Below are positions 645 to 35,458 of a DNA stretch of 36,195 bases, piece by piece (the stretch's first letter is position 1; every line of letters starts with the position of its first letter). Source of the stretch: a virus. The position numbers and the translations under genes were made by a program. The stretch is taken from the IMG/VR virus record IMGVR_UViG_3300025127_000006, positions 1 through 36,195 of that record. One strand, given 5' to 3'. The notes beneath the pieces were generated by a model. The model did no database searches and was not told the origin of the DNA. It worked only from the letters and a program-made list of their open reading frames with translations.

Positions 645-873
645 CTGTATATTTCCTAAATTGTTGTAGTTTGCTTAATTGTTTTATTCTAGTTTCATCT
701 GTGTAATTAGATTTTCTAAACCCTTTAACATTTTGGTACCCATGATACTTACAATAAAAGGTCCCATTTGCCAACTGATAACCTTTCATTCTACAAGGTA
801 TCAATTTACCCTCACGTCTACCGGCTCTGGTAAAGCCTTGACAGAATACCTTTCTCATGGCTCTTCCCGGCAT
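457..873 (-). CDS. Small basic zinc-finger-like protein (HGG-type)
   Basis: 138 residues, basic. The N-terminal half has C11, C27, C41 and H44 in a layout (C-x15-C-x13-C-x2-H, then G-x4-KG) like the small HGG-motif proteins of phages, which are thought to bind zinc. Here the HGG is HGY. The C-terminal half is Arg/Lys/Tyr/Asn-rich with no domain seen. The start overlaps the stop of the winged-helix gene (873) by one base. The last third (457-644) overlaps the terminase-like gene in a different frame. Probably nucleic-acid-binding; exact function unknown. Confidence 0.65.
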   Translation of the reverse strand: MPGRAMRKVFCQGFTRAGRREGKLIPCRMKGYQLANGTFYCKYHGYQNVKGFRKSNYTDETRIKQLSKLQQFRKYTDEQLKEYYYTQVKVRIDNNQPSRYNLRKTNERSNTYRNLRGKTVRVQLDEVLCSLKKKSRIE

Positions 874-1565
874 TATTTTTTAGGTCTACCTTTCCAATCT
901 AAATTATTACGTTTATTATATTCAACTTTCTCTCTATATCTTGGATTGCTATTCTTACTTATCTTAGAAAGTTCAGTTAATATTTTTTGAGGGTGTACAT
1001 AATTAGATTTACTTTCCCGGTCCAGTTCAGCCTTTCTTTCTTTAGCAAGTTTAATATAGTATGGATTTTTATTATCTGAATTAAGCTCTGCAAGGGGGAG
1101 CTTCGCTAAATTGTCTACTATAGCTTGTTGATTACCTCTATTATCTCTAATTATATTTTCTATAGTATATACTTCTAATGTATCTACTAATGTAGCTCTT
1201 ATTTGCGCATTAGGTAGTTCAGATTTAGACATTGAGTTGTGTAGATTTGAGCTACCTTGAAATAAACCCTCATTTTTAATGAATAATTGATTGATAGAGT
1301 AGGTTTTACCACTGCGACCTTTGATAGAATAAACTACATTCATCTTCTCTAAAGTTTCAAGTGATCTCTTAACAGTAGACCTAGATAAGTTAGTATCTTT
1401 AGCTAAAGTCATGTGGCGAAGTCCGGCAGAATAGTTATTCTTTTTCCAACAGTGTTTCATGAGCGCCATGAATACATTTAGACAGTTAGATTTCTTTTGA
1501 CCGGACAATCTGTTAAGATGGAAGTACAATTTGTACGTTATATGTATAAAACCTCTAGTCTGCAC
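873..1565 (-). CDS. Winged-helix DNA-binding protein, replication- or regulator-like
   Basis: 230 residues from a GTG at 1563-1565. Residues about 27-95 look like a winged helix: a helical stretch, a recognition helix in SRSTVKRSLETLEKMNVV, then a two-strand wing with GRSGKTYSIN. This resembles the N-terminal domain of plasmid/phage replication initiators and helix_36-type regulators. The remaining C-terminal part is polar and basic, ending NLDWKGRPKK, with no ATPase or helicase motif. The GTG lies inside the stop region of the preceding gene (11-base overlap), suggesting translational coupling; a Shine-Dalgarno is not clear. With no helicase or polymerase in the genome, a role in origin recognition is possible, but a transcription factor is equally likely. 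Confidence 0.65.
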   Translation of the reverse strand: MQTRGFIHITYKLYFHLNRLSGQKKSNCLNVFMALMKHCWKKNNYSAGLRHMTLAKDTNLSRSTVKRSLETLEKMNVVYSIKGRSGKTYSINQLFIKNEGLFQGSSNLHNSMSKSELPNAQIRATLVDTLEVYTIENIIRDNRGNQQAIVDNLAKLPLAELNSDNKNPYYIKLAKERKAELDRESKSNYVHPQKILTELSKISKNSNPRYREKVEYNKRNNLDWKGRPKK

Positions 1566-2640: not shown

Positions 2641-2738
2641 AAGTCCTTTCTTTATCTAATTCGTATCTATATATATTATATTATTTTCTTTACAACAAAA
2701 AAAATATGTGTATAGATGGTGGAAAACTAAAGGAACTT
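2641..2738. promoter_or_regulatory. Divergent promoter region between HTH gene and exonuclease gene
   Basis: An AT-rich spacer with runs such as TATATATATTATATTATT lies between the leftward HTH gene and the rightward exonuclease gene. On the minus strand TTGTAA followed about 16 bases later by TATATA is a passable sigma70-like promoter; several TATAAT-like hexamers exist on the plus strand. No clear palindromic operator is visible. The exonuclease frame is open from an ATG at 2706, but only the ATG at 2739 has a ribosome-binding site, so bases to 2738 are treated as leader. Confidence 0.45.
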
Positions 2739-3674
2739 ATGAAACTCAGAGAAAAAACAAAAGAACAATTAATAGAAGAAGCATTTGCAATATTCAATGG
2801 TGGAAATGGATTAGATCATTGGTCCTATACCTCAACCTCTACACCTTTTGCAAAAAATTTAATTCAATATACTTTCCCGGAAAAAATTAGAAGGTCTTGG
2901 TTATGGAGATACAAACCTAACTTTGGAAATCTTGTAAACAATACAGTGCAAAGATTGATTGCAGATGTTTTATATAAAACAAAAACTTCTGTCGCTGCAG
3001 AATGGGACCGGGATTATAATGTAAGTTTCAACAAAGAGCTAGAAGAAATAAATAAAAAAGATCCGGTAGATAAAAAGGATGAGTACGCAAGAAAAGAAAT
3101 GATAAGTTATGCACACGATTGTATAGGTATTACAAAAAAAGTAGTGAAAGATTTAGTAGGAACTGATAAATTAGTTTGCGAAAAATATGTTGATCACAAA
3201 GAATTTACCATGATCAAACCGATAACTGGTAGAGTAGATTATCTGACAGAAAAATTATTTATAGAATTAAAAACAAAACCACCGAATGTTAGAAAGGTTA
3301 AGAACAAGAATGAGTGGAGTATGAGTACACAAGAGCTACCCACTGAACCAGCAATGGATAACCTAACACAGACTTCATTTTATTATATGACTACCAAGAA
3401 GGTACCATATTTAATTTATGTAAATGACAAAGATCACATCATCTTTGATCAATCGCATGAGCTAATGAAGAAAGAACATCTGGAGCATTTATACTTTAAG
3501 ATGGTTGAAAAGATTATACTTTGGGAACGTATGATTATGTTTTGCAAGGGTAATCTGTCTGAACTTGCATTGATGTGTGAGCCACCAGACATGAACCATT
3601 TTTTTTATTATAAAGATTTAGCACCGGAACAATTACAACTAATAACTAACCTATGGGGAATAAAACATGACTAA
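2739..3674 (+). CDS. PD-(D/E)XK exonuclease, RecB/lambda-Exo-like
   Basis: 311 residues from the ATG at 2739, chosen over an upstream in-frame ATG at 2706 because AAAGGAACTT sits just before it. The nuclease core is visible: E149 in VCEKYV, D167 in GRVDYL and E176-L-K178 in FIELKTK, the D...ExK arrangement of PD-(D/E)XK nucleases of the RecB/Cas4/lambda Exo group. An upstream conserved block near residues 51-72 (RRSWLWRYKPNFGN) may bind DNA. The next gene encodes an ERF annealing protein and overlaps by 8 bases, so the pair is a typical phage exonuclease/annealase recombination module: 5' ends are resected and the ssDNA annealed. Confidence in the fold is high; polarity of digestion cannot be read from sequence. 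Confidence 0.8.
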   Translation: MKLREKTKEQLIEEAFAIFNGGNGLDHWSYTSTSTPFAKNLIQYTFPEKIRRSWLWRYKPNFGNLVNNTVQRLIADVLYKTKTSVAAEWDRDYNVSFNKELEEINKKDPVDKKDEYARKEMISYAHDCIGITKKVVKDLVGTDKLVCEKYVDHKEFTMIKPITGRVDYLTEKLFIELKTKPPNVRKVKNKNEWSMSTQELPTEPAMDNLTQTSFYYMTTKKVPYLIYVNDKDHIIFDQSHELMKKEHLEHLYFKMVEKIILWERMIMFCKGNLSELALMCEPPDMNHFFYYKDLAPEQLQLITNLWGIKHD

Positions 3675-4314
3675 AAAAAATATATATCAAAAACTTCATG
3701 CTGCCTGTCTAAGTGCAAGTGCAGTTAAGAAAGCTGCAAAAGCTAATGGGATGCACTTTAACCCACTTTTGCACGACAAAGTTCAAGAGGTAGCAACACA
3801 AGCATTGCTTGATAATGGTTTGTATGCGACCTGTAATTATCTTACAGAGATAGTACCAAACATTAAACAAGTCATGGTCGTATGTACTATGAAAGTTTAT
3901 GATGTAGATGATCCAACACAACATATACTTGTTGATGGCTGCTCTGCATTTGGGAACCTTGATAAGTTTGGAACCGGAAATGCTATGTCATACTCAAGAA
4001 AGTATGCGTTTTTAAATTTATTAAATCTTAAAACAGGTATCAAAGATGAGGATGGTTACGATCCAAAACCATTTGAAGAAGATTCTCCGGAACAATCCGA
4101 AGAAGAACCTACATACTTAGATGAAACTATAGATGTAGAAGAAATGAAACGTGCCTTAAAATCAACTAACTCTTTAGATGAATTTAATGAGGTTAAGGAT
4201 TTAATAAGAAAGGATGTTGATTTTCTATTAAGAAACAACTTACGAGCATATAGACAAGTAACAGATGTTGCTGAAACTCGTGAGACACAACTAACAAATG
4301 ATCAGCAAAGCTGA
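3667..4314 (+). CDS. erf: ERF-family single-strand annealing protein
   Basis: 215 residues. ERF proteins (as in P22) coat and anneal complementary single strands in phage recombination and genome circularisation. The family hallmark is at residues 101-131: FGTGNAMSYSRKYAFLNLLN followed by an acidic DEDGYD. The N-terminal 100 residues (helical start, then strands VMVVCTMKVYDV) fit the annealing core. The C-terminal tail from about 136 is acidic (EEDSPEQSEEE), as in proteins that contact SSB or exonuclease partners. It overlaps the exonuclease gene by 8 bases and the next frame by 1. Confidence 0.85.
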   Translation: MTKKNIYQKLHAACLSASAVKKAAKANGMHFNPLLHDKVQEVATQALLDNGLYATCNYLTEIVPNIKQVMVVCTMKVYDVDDPTQHILVDGCSAFGNLDKFGTGNAMSYSRKYAFLNLLNLKTGIKDEDGYDPKPFEEDSPEQSEEEPTYLDETIDVEEMKRALKSTNSLDEFNEVKDLIRKDVDFLLRNNLRAYRQVTDVAETRETQLTNDQQS

Positions 4315-4334: not shown

Positions 4335-4643
4335 ATGAGTGAAGATGTAGTATGGTGTAATCTTGTAAGAAACCATAACAAGAATGAAGCGAAGCAACCG
4401 GATTGGGTTGCACCACCAAACGAAAATGCACCAGAGGGAAAGAAATGGACCAAAGGTGTGAAGATGGCAGATGGTAGTTGGTGGAACCAGTGCGCTTGGG
4501 ATGAACAGGATGGAGAAGGGAATGTTGTTGGTATAACTGTCAAGATTTCACCACCTACTTCCAATAACGATAAATCTGCAACTCCAAATAAAGGGTTTCA
4601 AAGCAAACCTAATTATGGTAATAAACAATCATATAAGTTTTAA
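4335..4643 (+). CDS. Hypothetical ssDNA-module protein
   Basis: 102 residues from the ATG at 4335, preceded by AAAGGAGAAAAC. The frame is open further upstream to 4314, but that ATG lacks a ribosome-binding site. The central part is rich in Trp and Gly (KKWTKGVKMADGSWWNQCAW), suggesting a small beta-rich or nucleic-acid-binding domain, and the C-terminus is a flexible Asn/Lys/Gly/Tyr tail. Placed directly after the annealing protein, it could be a single-strand-binding accessory. This is inference from position; no SSB motif can be assigned. Confidence 0.65.
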   Translation: MSEDVVWCNLVRNHNKNEAKQPDWVAPPNENAPEGKKWTKGVKMADGSWWNQCAWDEQDGEGNVVGITVKISPPTSNNDKSATPNKGFQSKPNYGNKQSYKF

Positions 4644-4657
4644 TTAACTTATATCTA

Positions 4658-4713
4658 GTCTTGGGGGAGTTTTTTCTTTCTAGTTCCCTTTCGGTAGTTT
4701 TCTTCCCCAAGAC
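4658..4713 (+). other. Long-loop hairpin upstream of DUF6378-like gene
   Basis: GTCTTGGGG at 4658-4666 pairs perfectly with CCCCAAGAC at 4705-4713, leaving a 38-base, mostly T-rich interior. The GC-rich stem stands out in this AT-rich genome. There is no U-tract after the stem, so it does not look like an intrinsic terminator in the direction of transcription. The following gene at 4726 has no Shine-Dalgarno, so the structure may control translation or mRNA processing. Confidence 0.5.
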
Positions 4714-5028: not shown

Positions 5029-5246
5029 AAAAATACCGAAGAATTATCAATGGAGAATGTTCATTCGAGATGATTGAACTATTTGATGATGTAAAGAAGG
5101 CTGCAAACAACTCCAATAATGGAGAGCTTGTAGAATGTAAGATCAAGAATTTGAAGATTGATTTTACAACAGTAAAAAAGGAGCATGATGGAACAGATCA
5201 GATTGCGTCTGCAGAAGCTAAAGGATCTTCAAGCGAAAAAACATGA
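5025..5246 (+). CDS. Small hypothetical protein
   Basis: 73 residues. The start is coupled to the previous gene by an ATGA overlap. It begins with a basic MKKYRRIINGE and has a helix around ECSFEMIELFDDVKKAANN, followed by a strand-like segment and a Ser/Ala/Glu/Lys tail. Its last 62 bases overlap the next small gene in another frame. No family recognised. Possibly a small regulator of the replication unit. Confidence 0.55.
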   Translation: MKKYRRIINGECSFEMIELFDDVKKAANNSNNGELVECKIKNLKIDFTTVKKEHDGTDQIASAEAKGSSSEKT

Positions 5247-5349
5247 GGAATATTTAGCTGCTAAGAGAGAGGTTGAGCAAAAGCAAAGAGATTCTTTTGA
5301 TTTAATCTGGCAAATTGAGCAGACAAAAGAAGAATTAATGAGAACATAA
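5185..5349 (+). CDS. Small coiled-coil protein
   Basis: 54 residues starting MMEQIRLRLQKLKDLQAKKH at 5185, with AAAAGGAGC immediately before the ATG. Nearly all of it is a charged helix (Lys/Glu/Gln with regularly spaced Leu/Ile/Val), so a coiled coil is likely. It overlaps the previous gene by 62 bases. The strong ribosome-binding site and full-length open frame support it. Function unknown. Confidence 0.6.
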   Translation: MMEQIRLRLQKLKDLQAKKHEEYLAAKREVEQKQRDSFDLIWQIEQTKEELMRT

Positions 5350-5399: not shown

Positions 5400-5933
5400 A
5401 TGACCAAAAATATAAATCAAGTGTACGATAATCATATTAAATACTTAAATCAAAATGAATTTATCTATGAAGTTAAAGCATCATACGATTTGTTAAGCGA
5501 AGAGAAGAAGAAAATTTATAGACTTGGCTTTATCAATGGCTGTAAAGAAATGCAGGATAGAAAAAGACCGGTTCAAGTTGCGCCACCAAATAAAAAGATT
5601 GTAGGGTTTACTTTTAAAACACCAAAGCCATCTGATGTACAATCAGTTATCAATAAGGTTTGTATTCACTTTGAGGTACACAAAGAAACACTGATGGGTA
5701 AGTCAAGAACATCAAGCATAGTCAGAGCTAGAAATGTTATTCATAATTTATTATTTGAAAAATATAATATGGGTCTAACAGATATTGGTAGATACTTTGG
5801 ACAAGATCACACTACAGTTTTACATTCAATAGAGATGAAACGAGATCAAAGAAGATTTTGGTCCCCGGAAAAAACTTTGTGGCAAGAATACGAAAAGATA
5901 AAAGATACTGTAGCAGAAACTATTAGAGAATAG
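5400..5933 (+). CDS. DnaA domain IV protein (replication initiator DNA-binding domain)
   Basis: 177 residues, with AGGGG upstream of the ATG. Residues about 78-155 match the DNA-binding domain IV of bacterial DnaA: KSRTSSIVRARNVIHNLL, then DIGRYFGQDHTTVLHS, which contains the D-H-T-T-V signature that reads the DnaA box. The ATPase domain III is absent: there is no Walker A or B motif and the length leaves no room. Residues 1-77 are a helical N-terminus with a Pro/Lys linker and no clear similarity to DnaA domain I. It closes the exonuclease/ERF unit. The protein should bind DnaA-box-like sites, perhaps to mark the phage origin for host replication proteins or to compete with host DnaA. The domain call is firm; the role is inference. 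Confidence 0.85.
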   Translation: MTKNINQVYDNHIKYLNQNEFIYEVKASYDLLSEEKKKIYRLGFINGCKEMQDRKRPVQVAPPNKKIVGFTFKTPKPSDVQSVINKVCIHFEVHKETLMGKSRTSSIVRARNVIHNLLFEKYNMGLTDIGRYFGQDHTTVLHSIEMKRDQRRFWSPEKTLWQEYEKIKDTVAETIRE

Positions 5934-7809: not shown

Positions 7810-7867
7810 ATCCTTGTTGTGATAAGTGTGTTACCTTTTTACTATATTGTTGTGCATACAATTTCAT
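7739..7867 (-). CDS. Basic small protein overlapping its neighbour
   Basis: 42 residues beginning MKLYAQQYSKKVTHLSQQGY, with a Lys/Arg/Thr-rich tail. The ATG overlaps the stop of the cupin gene (ATGA), and the second half is read in a different frame from the PKKTSIGRR gene. The N-terminal half is unique sequence, whereas the basic tail may simply reflect the overlapping frame. It may serve mainly to couple translation to the next gene. Confidence 0.45.
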   Translation of the reverse strand: MKLYAQQYSKKVTHLSQQGYGKKKVQSRKTRTRKNTKKNKYR

Positions 7868-8361
7868 TTTGTGTTTGCTTGTTTTAAATGTTCTTTACCC
7901 ATATAATTTCCATCCCAATTAGAACTTACATGAGTAGGTTCTACATCATTTAACCAGTGTTGAATAGATATAAAAGCACCTCCCTTATCAGATGCTGTTC
8001 CGCCATGAGGATCATTTGGTCTTACTCTTATAGTTTGATAAAGATTAATTGGAAAACCATTCTCTTCTTTAAATGCTTCTTCGTGATCAATTATAGTTTC
8101 ACCAGAGTGAGTGAATTTCATTCCATATAAAAAACATTCATAACTATCTACATCTGGATGTGTGTGTTGTGGTATTACACAGTTAGGCTGACATATAAAT
8201 AGTTCTACTTGAAAAGATTTTACTCTATATAAAACTATACCACTAACACCTTCTATAAATACTAAACCATTTTTCATAGGTGTATATACTTTATCTACTT
8301 CACCAGAGGTTAGATACCAGTGCGCAAAATGAGATAGTTTGTCTTGATTGGGATCAATCAT
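7864..8361 (-). CDS. Cupin-fold protein
   Basis: 165 residues. The metal-binding cupin motifs are visible: H66-x-H68 in PQHTHPDVDSYE with E75, and H119 in RPNDPHGG. Between them is the usual glycine-containing turn. A strand-rich core from about 30 to 140 fits a single cupin barrel. Similar proteins occur in marine phages without assigned function; enzymatic (dioxygenase or isomerase) and structural virion roles are both possible. It lies in the late unit between basic micro-proteins and the holin-like gene. Confidence 0.7.
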   Translation of the reverse strand: MIDPNQDKLSHFAHWYLTSGEVDKVYTPMKNGLVFIEGVSGIVLYRVKSFQVELFICQPNCVIPQHTHPDVDSYECFLYGMKFTHSGETIIDHEEAFKEENGFPINLYQTIRVRPNDPHGGTASDKGGAFISIQHWLNDVEPTHVSSNWDGNYMGKEHLKQANTK

Positions 8362-31097: not shown

Positions 31098-32369
31098 TTA
31101 TATAATCCTATAATCATTATCTGCTACAACTTGTGGAGCAGTTTGTCTAGTATTAATTTCTTGGAGACCAACAGCGAGATACCTCATAGCATCACACGCA
31201 TGGCTGCTCCAATCATGGACAGGCTTTGATCTAAACATTCTGTTTTTATCAATATACTTCCTGTGATAATGTCTTAACGCATCTATCAAACTTTTGCAAT
31301 GGTCTACATCAATCCAACATCTAGGTAACATCATTGTTGTTGCATGGATACCATCTTCTAATGGAATTTTTGGTACGACTTTAAACCTTAATCCTAATTG
31401 CAGTGCGACCTCTCTCCGGGTTTTGCCATTTCCAAATTCGGTAACTTCAATGTCATGCGGAGCAAAATGATCTTTGTAGATATATTCTTTTTCATTAATC
31501 ATCTTAATGTAATAAGGTAGACCTTGACCTTTCTCTTCGTGGTAATCAATAATGTTTATGGATCTGCCAAGCTGCTGATAAAATATTATAGAACTGTGAT
31601 CTGATACTCCAAGGTCCCACGCTGTTGATACTGGTAGTGCAGGATCGTAAGGCACTCTGGTAAGTTGCCTGTCATCATCTAGTTTTGCAATCACATCTCC
31701 ATATACTGCACCTTCTATGTTGGCAATCCAATCGCACTCAAACTCTTGCTGATACTTTTTCTCTCCCATGACTTCTTTTGCCTTATCTAATTCATCTTGA
31801 TCAACTATCTTTGTTTGACTAGCTTTAGCTTTGTAGTGAAACCAATCCTCCGCACCTTGTGCGTGTTGGTACAACTCATAAAAATTATTCTGCATACCCA
31901 TTGGTGTACCTATAAATACGCAGTAACCCTTTCTGTCAGATAGTGCTGGTCTAATTATTTCTGGAAACAACTTACTGTTTACATTTGCGTACTCATCAAT
32001 AACGCAGCCATCTAAGTATATACCTCTTAATCCATCTGGGGATTCGGAGCCTAGCAAGGTGATTCTAGCACCATTAGGTAGGTCTACACGCAGCTCTGTC
32101 TCATTAAACTTTGTGTGGGGTATCTTGGCGGTAAACTGTTTCATGTAATCCCATGCAATAGACTTTGCTTGTTTGAAGGTAGGTGCAATATAGGCATACC
32201 TAGGGTTCTTATTTTGGGACAGCAATGCTGACCTAATTAGGTGGTTTATCATACATACTGTTTTGCCGAACCTTCTGTGGCATACCAGTACATTCCATCT
32301 GTGATTGTCTATTTGTCTGTGTAAGTAGGCTTGATGCTTCCTTGGTGTGTAGGGTATTTTAATATCCAT
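31098..32369 (-). CDS. terL: Terminase large subunit (packaging ATPase/nuclease)
   Basis: 423 residues. ATPase motifs: Walker A HRRFGKT (31-37) and Walker B with catalytic Glu CVIDE (122-126), and the coupling motif IGTPMG (153-158). Nuclease domain: D252 and D257 in AWDLGVSDHSS, and D393 in SHACDAMRY. It cuts concatemeric DNA and pumps it into the head through the portal. At 423 residues it is compact, but all motifs are present. The small subunit candidate lies far away (171-644). Confidence 0.95.
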   Translation of the reverse strand: MDIKIPYTPRKHQAYLHRQIDNHRWNVLVCHRRFGKTVCMINHLIRSALLSQNKNPRYAYIAPTFKQAKSIAWDYMKQFTAKIPHTKFNETELRVDLPNGARITLLGSESPDGLRGIYLDGCVIDEYANVNSKLFPEIIRPALSDRKGYCVFIGTPMGMQNNFYELYQHAQGAEDWFHYKAKASQTKIVDQDELDKAKEVMGEKKYQQEFECDWIANIEGAVYGDVIAKLDDDRQLTRVPYDPALPVSTAWDLGVSDHSSIIFYQQLGRSINIIDYHEEKGQGLPYYIKMINEKEYIYKDHFAPHDIEVTEFGNGKTRREVALQLGLRFKVVPKIPLEDGIHATTMMLPRCWIDVDHCKSLIDALRHYHRKYIDKNRMFRSKPVHDWSSHACDAMRYLAVGLQEINTRQTAPQVVADNDYRII

Positions 32370-32371
32370 AT

Positions 32372-32560
32372 TTAGTGTATTCTGTCAGACTTCATACTAC
32401 TAATAGGTTGATAGTCAAAACCCATACTAAGCATAGCATAAGTAATAAATAAATCAGAAGTTGTCTTATTGGGAAAGCCATAAAACTTAATTATTACGTT
32501 GTTTGTGCCTTCTTCAATGTAAGCAACTGAATCTAAATCGTCTGCAGTAAAGTAATCCAT
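32372..32560 (-). CDS. Small hypothetical protein, first gene of late unit
   Basis: 62 residues, acidic N-terminus (MDYFTADDLDSVAYIEEGTN) and a strand VIIKFYGFPN followed by a helix; a compact alpha/beta protein. It starts the long leftward late unit, 2 bases before terL. No Shine-Dalgarno is evident upstream of the ATG at 32558-32560. Function unknown. Confidence 0.6.
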   Translation of the reverse strand: MDYFTADDLDSVAYIEEGTNNVIIKFYGFPNKTTSDLFITYAMLSMGFDYQPISSMKSDRIH

Positions 32561-32607
32561 ATACTATATCTAGTGCATTTGAAAAAAAATAAAACTAAAA
32601 AAGTGTT

Positions 32608-32616
32608 TGTGTATAA
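32608..32616 (-). promoter_or_regulatory. Consensus DnaA box
   Basis: TGTGTATAA on the plus strand reads TTATACACA on the minus strand, a full match to the DnaA box consensus TTATNCACA. About one such match is expected by chance in a genome this size, but this one lies in the largest intergenic region of a phage that encodes a DnaA domain IV protein. No second consensus box was seen nearby. Confidence 0.4.
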
Positions 32617-32744
32617 AAGGGTGGCTGGATCTAAGGGTGTCCTCAAGTCCGGTCTATATATAGAAAGAAAGTTGCGGGTGAAATATGGGGTATGTTGCAA
32701 ATTAGAATCATTAAAAACTAGATTATAGCAGGGAATATATATCT

Positions 32745-32789
32745 TAATTAGATTAGTGATAATAAAAGATTATCAAACGTAATTAGATT
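32745..32789. repeat. Palindrome flanked by direct repeats
   Basis: TAATTAGATT occurs at 32745-32754 and again at 32780-32789. Between them lies TGATAAT (32757-32763), loop AAAAG, ATTATCA (32769-32775), a perfect 7-base inverted repeat. The symmetrical arrangement suggests a binding site for a dimeric regulator or an origin iteron cluster. In such AT-rich DNA part of this could be chance. Confidence 0.5.
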
Positions 32790-33047
32790 TAATTAATAAT
32801 TCTTAATAGATAGGTCAATAATACTGTCGTTTGTTTTATCGCATAAAAAAATCGCACCTCGCTTTATGTATGGATACCAAATTATCAACCTACATTAATA
32901 AACATTAGAACAATTCTAAACTGTAATTATACAACACCTGTTGCAAATATATCACACAAAATAATTTTATATTTTTTTCTATACTGCCTTATTCTTAACA
33001 TAATTATTATATATGCTTTGTATATGTTAAAAAAAAGAAAGGAAACA

Positions 33048-35292: not shown

Positions 35293-35458
35293 AAAAGTAG
35301 ATAAATTAGGTAAAATGATTGATGATTGGAACAACTACCTAGATAAATTAAAGCAAGAAGAAGAACAAAGTCTTGCCATATTTTATGATTACGATTTGGA
35401 ACCGCTGCCAAATGATTTAGTTGATATGGTAAATGAAAAAAACAAAAGGGAAAAATAA
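35285..35458 (+). CDS. Small coiled-coil hypothetical protein
   Basis: 57 residues from the ATG at 35285, preceded by GCGAGGAAA; upstream in-frame ATGs from 35252 fall in the acidic repeat of the previous gene and lack support. Helical, Lys/Glu/Asp-rich with DYDLEPLPNDLVDMVNEK at the end. Overlaps the previous gene by 8 bases. Confidence 0.6.
   Translation: MNKKVDKLGKMIDDWNNYLDKLKQEEEQSLAIFYDYDLEPLPNDLVDMVNEKNKREK

Follow-up and report, generated by a model that had tools for sequence, protein, structure and literature searches.

Full-length bacterial DnaA and the stand-alone DnaA C-terminal proteins of phages are the closest described relatives of the locus analysed here. Full-length DnaA is a known transcription activator and repressor, and a contact with the β subunit of RNA polymerase has been proposed for it at phage lambda (PMC8203912). 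In the account of Szalewska-Palasz et al. given in PMC8203912, DNA-bound DnaA can activate phage transcription; the lambda case concerns the full-length host protein at lambda pR/ori, whereas the proposal here concerns a domain-IV protein encoded by the phage and acting at a late operon. DNA recognition by domain IV has been described in detail: R399 reads TTA in the minor groove, the helix 434–451 reads TnCACA in the major groove, and T435 has a base-contact role (PMC5742627). Among phages, the uncultured Caudovirales proteins annotated as "DnaA C-terminal" in BFVD (mostly 90–205 aa) and the "DnaA" of Sulfitobacter phage phiGT1 are also stand-alone domain IV proteins, although their N-termini differ from that of the pelagiphage protein. 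A total of 59 BFVD structures matched our protein at E ≤ 0.001, and the named ones among the matches listed are called "DnaA C-terminal". Since proteins consisting of the DnaA C-terminus are thus common in environmental phages, the architecture itself is not new.

SAR11 bacteria are the most abundant bacteria of the ocean. The window, that is the whole 36,195-nt stretch of viral DNA that was analysed (IMG/VR record IMGVR_UViG_3300025127_000006), is the genome of an HTVC010P-type pelagiphage, a virus of SAR11. It shows the full HTVC010P-type gene order, and its closest isolated relative is Pelagibacter phage HTVC203P, with 96.6% identity in the DnaA-domain-IV (DnaA-IV) protein. An exact 127-bp terminal repeat was found in the window; because assemblers often use k-mers of this length, the repeat may reflect circular closure alone. 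Phages of this type are reported to rank second in abundance among the known pelagiphage groups (PMC12753301), and Chen et al. (2019, PMC6811365) listed DnaA among the proteins shared by all HTVC010P-related genomes. Consistently, the DnaA-IV gene was found in all 10 HTVC010P-type isolates scanned and in 6/6 HTVC010P-type contigs of at least 29 kb. The window gene is the same gene, in the same order, as HTVC203P gp22, the "DnaA-like" gene of Skadi and the gene for the Bac_DnaA_C protein of Greip. The papers found on the "DnaA" or replication initiation genes of HTVC010P-type phages mention neither the missing AAA+ domain nor a box in the late leader.

The original prediction, made from the window sequence, described a phage lacking its own polymerase, primase and helicase. 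None of these was found among the window ORFs scanned, and published work agrees that HTVC010P-type phages encode no RNA polymerase or DNA polymerase but ascribes a lambda-like helicase loader to such a phage (PMC10504331). One candidate for a true initiator or helicase loader is the winged-helix protein encoded near the left end of the window. This protein weakly matches phrog_270 (E = 2e-5) and is labelled "transcriptional regulator" in relatives, and a fold search returned generic winged helices only. Iterons of the lambda O type were also considered and rejected: there is no array in the DnaA-IV gene, and the repeats in the winged-helix gene are not conserved. Elsewhere in the window, a leftward ORF (7864–8361) encodes a cupin-like protein that weakly matches the PCO_ADO thiol dioxygenases (E = 2.8e-4, below the cut-off). 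The coordinates of the main features are collected in Table 1.

Table 1. Features of the window that bear on the DnaA-IV protein and its proposed site
Feature	Position	Strand	Remarks
Winged-helix protein, alternative initiator candidate	873..1565	-	Weakly matches phage replication initiators/lambda O
Putative nuclease	2706..3674	+	Name from relatives' annotation; no significant Pfam match
ERF single-strand annealing protein	3667..4314	+	PF04404 E = 1.3e-9; phrog_155 E = 1e-14
Conserved 12-bp GC-rich hairpin	4658..4713 (arms 4658-4669 / 4702-4713)	+	Arms covary between relatives
DnaA-domain-IV protein gene, 177 aa	5400..5933	+	Final gene of the rightward nuclease/ERF transcription unit
Phage-specific N-terminal region and linker, residues 1-77	5400..5630	+	Three predicted helices at low confidence
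DnaA domain IV, residues 81-145	5640..5834	+	Pfam match, invariant contact residues, fold
Terminase large subunit, second late gene	31098..32369	-	
First late gene, 62 aa, anchor for box position	32372..32560	-	
Noncoding region separating the leftward late genes from the rightward early genes	32561..33017	.	Box, C-rich stretch, T-rich stretch, GATAA/TTATC dyads
Conserved DnaA box TTATACACA, proposed target of the DnaA-IV protein	32608..32616	-	Lies some 55 nt before the first late gene

The DnaA-IV ORF starts with ATG, with AGGGGAT immediately 5' of the start codon. In every isolate read, its homologue ends the rightward nuclease/ERF unit. The placement of the gene in an exonuclease/ERF unit, as first proposed, holds for the ERF protein, which is a genuine PF04404 match; the nuclease is so named from its relatives and gave no significant Pfam match.

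The identity of the C-terminal half was evaluated by profile and structure comparison. Pfam search placed PF08299 (Bac_DnaA_C) on residues 81–145 with an E value of 2.1e-17 and a score of 63.3 bits, against a cut-off of 31.5, and the DIGRYFGQDHTTVLHS signature occupies residues 128–143 of the 177-aa protein. The top PDB sequence matches were 1j1v (E. coli DnaA domain IV on DNA) and 3pvp (M. tuberculosis DnaA-DBD). An AlphaFold2 model had pLDDT of about 83–92 across most of residues 81–170, and Foldseek matched its C-terminal half to 1j1v and 3pvp (TM to target 0.80–0.85, rmsd 2.0–2.4, E 3e-4 to 6e-4). These results confirmed, by both the HMM search and the structure prediction that had been proposed as checks, the original prediction of a DnaA domain IV in the C-terminal half. 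Full-length DnaA models aligned only through their C-terminal end, as with positions 340–415 of 437 in TIGR00362 (NCBIfam). Since the DnaA models were matched only over the last 70–75 positions before their end, and the protein is 177 aa long, it has no AAA+ ATPase domain III, again as predicted.

The N-terminal part was correctly judged to be unlike DnaA: residues 1–75 had no family match in Pfam, PHROG or NCBIfam, and in phage records their matches were confined to the same pelagiphage family. AlphaFold2 gave this region three helices at low confidence, and Y40, F44 and G47 are invariant in the family alignment. In the cellular genome collection, the whole protein had one match, in a phage contig inside an archaeal MAG. 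This contig, PBPJ01000001.1, is filed in a Woesearchaeota MAG, carries the DnaA-IV gene and, at 17456 bases, is exactly as long as a pelagiphage contig in IMG/VR; its assignment is probably a binning error. Conversely, CAKLQH020000026.1, named "Acinetobacter phage MD-2021a", contains a host dnaA-dnaN-recF-gyrB region, indicating that part of the phage-collection matches to DnaA is host DNA.

The read-out surface was assessed in an alignment of 46 non-identical family members. Residues corresponding to K397, R399, R407, D433, H434, T435 and T436 (E. coli numbering) were invariant in 46/46 members. We take D433 and H434 to be base contacts in 1j1v. The protein thus shares with bacterial DnaA domain IV (PF08299; 1j1v, 3pvp) the family, the fold and the invariant R399, D433, H434 and T435 equivalents, whereas P423, R432 and K415 of E. 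coli DnaA domain IV are replaced. Residues 81–145 are a DnaA domain IV by sequence, residues and fold, and the invariant read-out residues suggest that the 177-aa protein should still bind TTATNCACA. In contrast to bacterial DnaA, the phage protein has no domains I–III and hence no ATPase, strand opening or DnaA oligomerisation.

A box matching this consensus had been recognised by eye at the equivalent place before the late genes of other isolates. Its conservation was then quantified in the leaders of 78 relatives of the first late gene, from which 60 leaders with less than 93% mutual identity, isolates included, were retained. In 60/60 leaders, TTATNCACA with at most one mismatch lay 54–67 nt upstream of the first late start codon, in one orientation; in shuffled leaders, a match of this quality fell in the slot in 6.2%. 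Fifty of the 60 carried an exact box (TTATACACA in 42, TTATCCACA in 6 and TTATGCACA in 2). The fifth position varies between A, C and G and is the base left free in the DnaA-box consensus. The eight fixed positions hold 1.5–2.0 bits of information and the N position 1.23. Furthermore, the box forms an island of conservation and was retained by 9/9 clusters with identities of 60% or below, and the density of exact boxes was 2.53/kb in the 330-nt leaders versus 0.027/kb in the next 226 kb, a difference of about 95-fold. No cluster of DnaA boxes was found in the window or in the isolates (at most three one-mismatch matches per 200 bp), and the two exact boxes in the window compare with 2.85 expected by chance. 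No co-variation of box variants (for example CAAA, in Skadi) with the recognition helix was seen by eye, Skadi and the window both having DHTTVLHS.

Two further interpretations of the box sequence were examined. Genome-wide avoidance of DnaA boxes was rejected: a depletion appeared relative to first-order shuffles, but TTATNCACA ranked 95/400 among permuted motifs (TNCACA ranked 2/30 in this comparison). The box is also unlikely to be a −10 element, since CACA is conserved whereas the fifth base is variable. A consensus scan for a sigma70 promoter in register with the box performed no better than on shuffles. Dyads of the form GATAA-N6-TTATC lie at about 32740–32780 and nearby, and CTAACGATAA...TTATCAATAG occurs in several isolates; these dyads are possibly the operator of another phage regulator.

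The relation between gene and site was examined across other phages. HTVC028P-type phages share the late module with the window (TerL 60% and capsid 75% identical) and have the equivalent first late gene; HTVC028P itself was isolated on HTCC1062, like several of the box-bearing phages, and has an integrase and a different early region. No protein over the PF08299 cut-off was found in the HTVC028P isolate, nor in any of 18 HTVC028P-type IMG/VR records, seven of them of at least 30 kb, in which a single 25-position match stayed below the threshold. In the 38 non-redundant HTVC028P-type leaders, the slot never contained a box, even when one mismatch was allowed, and no exact box occurred anywhere in the 330 nt. 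A sister clade with neither gene nor box indicates that the two go together. Because they differ between two clades, the co-occurrence is essentially one evolutionary contrast.

The more distant HTVC106P, which has no DnaA-IV gene, carries an inverted box pair about 200–230 nt upstream of the late gene. Exact boxes in phages without the gene stand at 35447 and 35481 in HTVC106P and at 52, 365, 1758, 1790 and 38614 in Venkman. The inverted or paired boxes of these two phages look like origins that use host DnaA. Among unrelated phages with DnaA-IV-only proteins, Sulfitobacter phage phiGT1 and Bradyrhizobium phage ppBeUSDA76-2 have no comparable box, so the role proposed below need not be common to all such proteins.

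Other conserved elements were found in the rightward transcription unit. The GC-rich hairpin, placed between the 109-aa ORF and the DUF6378 ORF, has a conserved CCCTTTC loop; its arms change yet stay complementary in most of the HTVC010P-type relatives examined. Eleven distinct stems were seen, with up to four Watson–Crick types per pair and all 12 pairs kept. The presence of G–T pairs on the coding strand points to a structure formed in RNA, and the hairpin, for which no Rfam match was found, is probably an RNA element. Directly 5' of it, an AT-rich perfect hairpin (4631–4654, +) lies over the stop codon of the 109-aa ORF, and a hairpin is also present at this position in relatives. The gap upstream of the DnaA-IV gene was considered as a conserved noncoding element and discarded, as it encodes a conserved 54-aa ORF instead (5185–5349, +; RLQKLKDLQAKKHEEYLAAKREV...). 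This ORF aligns in frame across most relatives, is largely unannotated in isolates and is probably a real small coiled-coil protein.

Taken together, a single box locked 54–67 nt before the late operon points to late-gene control. The box stands at a promoter-like distance from that operon, and HTVC010P-type phages, which encode no RNA polymerase, must time their late genes with the host enzyme (PMC10504331). We therefore propose that a replication initiator reduced to its DNA-reading domain acts as an early-to-late switch, with a single dedicated DnaA box as operator, and put the probability of this reading at roughly 0.45. In this model, expression of the early unit, in which the DnaA-IV gene is last, would yield the DnaA-IV protein; its stand-alone domain IV, joined to a short pelagiphage-specific helical N-terminus, would read one TTATNCACA box; and its presence at the late-leader box would let host RNA polymerase transcribe the terminase/virion operon. 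The chances are about even that the protein regulates late-operon transcription at the box, activation being more probable than repression. The box would presumably be occupied by the phage protein rather than by host DnaA, with a transcriptional outcome. Since the promoter scan placed no start site, we infer the direction and geometry of the regulation.

The original prediction had suggested that the protein may mark the phage origin, and the conserved box in phage DNA agrees with part of this suggestion, whereas the lack of a box cluster and the position of the single site before the late operon do not. The 460-bp noncoding region with its single box could be the origin, with the DnaA-IV protein either marking it for the host replisome or assisting the lambda-O-like protein; we regard this as a rather unlikely alternative, although several observations are consistent with it. 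The region is noncoding, AT-rich and furnished with dyads, the gene sits in a recombination/replication unit, phage annotators label it "DNA replication initiation", the intergenic box pairs of HTVC106P and Venkman resemble origins, and plasmid origins in which a single DnaA box adjoins AT-rich DNA provide a precedent. The region also lies close to the cumulative GC skew minimum, but the skew tracks gene direction, so the minimum is not independent evidence for an origin. Against an origin, there is one box only, without a cluster or an iteron array, and its fixed distance and orientation relative to the late start codon would be an unusual constraint. Moreover, the protein has no AAA+ domain to melt DNA, and the winged-helix protein is another candidate initiator. 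Because the ATPase domain and a box cluster are both absent, the 177-aa protein is not a DnaA initiator.

Host DnaA might instead read the late-leader box and thereby set the timing of late transcription or of origin use, with the DnaA-IV protein of the phage acting there as an antagonist or modulator. Host DnaA should recognise TTATNCACA, it activates lambda transcription (PMC8203912, PMC3985674), and the boxes of HTVC106P, a phage without the gene, keep this explanation as a candidate. It is nonetheless improbable, as both box and gene are missing from HTVC028P, which was isolated on the same host species and has a related late operon, and from the relatives of HTVC028P. Least likely is a takeover in which the protein occupies host boxes (oriC, dnaA promoter) and stops initiation, the phage box being incidental or autoregulatory: the protein has the read-out residues of cellular DnaA, and a domain IV without AAA+ would be a natural dominant competitor, but nothing in the phage data requires blocking, and both the positionally conserved late-leader box in every relative and its absence from the gene-less sister clade are left unexplained. 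That all relatives have one matching site before the virion genes makes late-gene control, and not a block of host replication, the probable role.

The DnaA-IV protein is thus an already known but uncharacterised phage core gene product; what is new is the single, positionally conserved late-leader box and its coupling to the gene. We found no published description of a phage DnaA-IV protein at a late promoter in the open-access literature searched. The question is testable, as the protein is named, the site is 9 bp long and the sister group serves as a clean control. The result further suggests that function may be misjudged where phage domain-IV proteins are labelled "DnaA", and it bears on gene timing and the start of replication in abundant phages without polymerases of their own.
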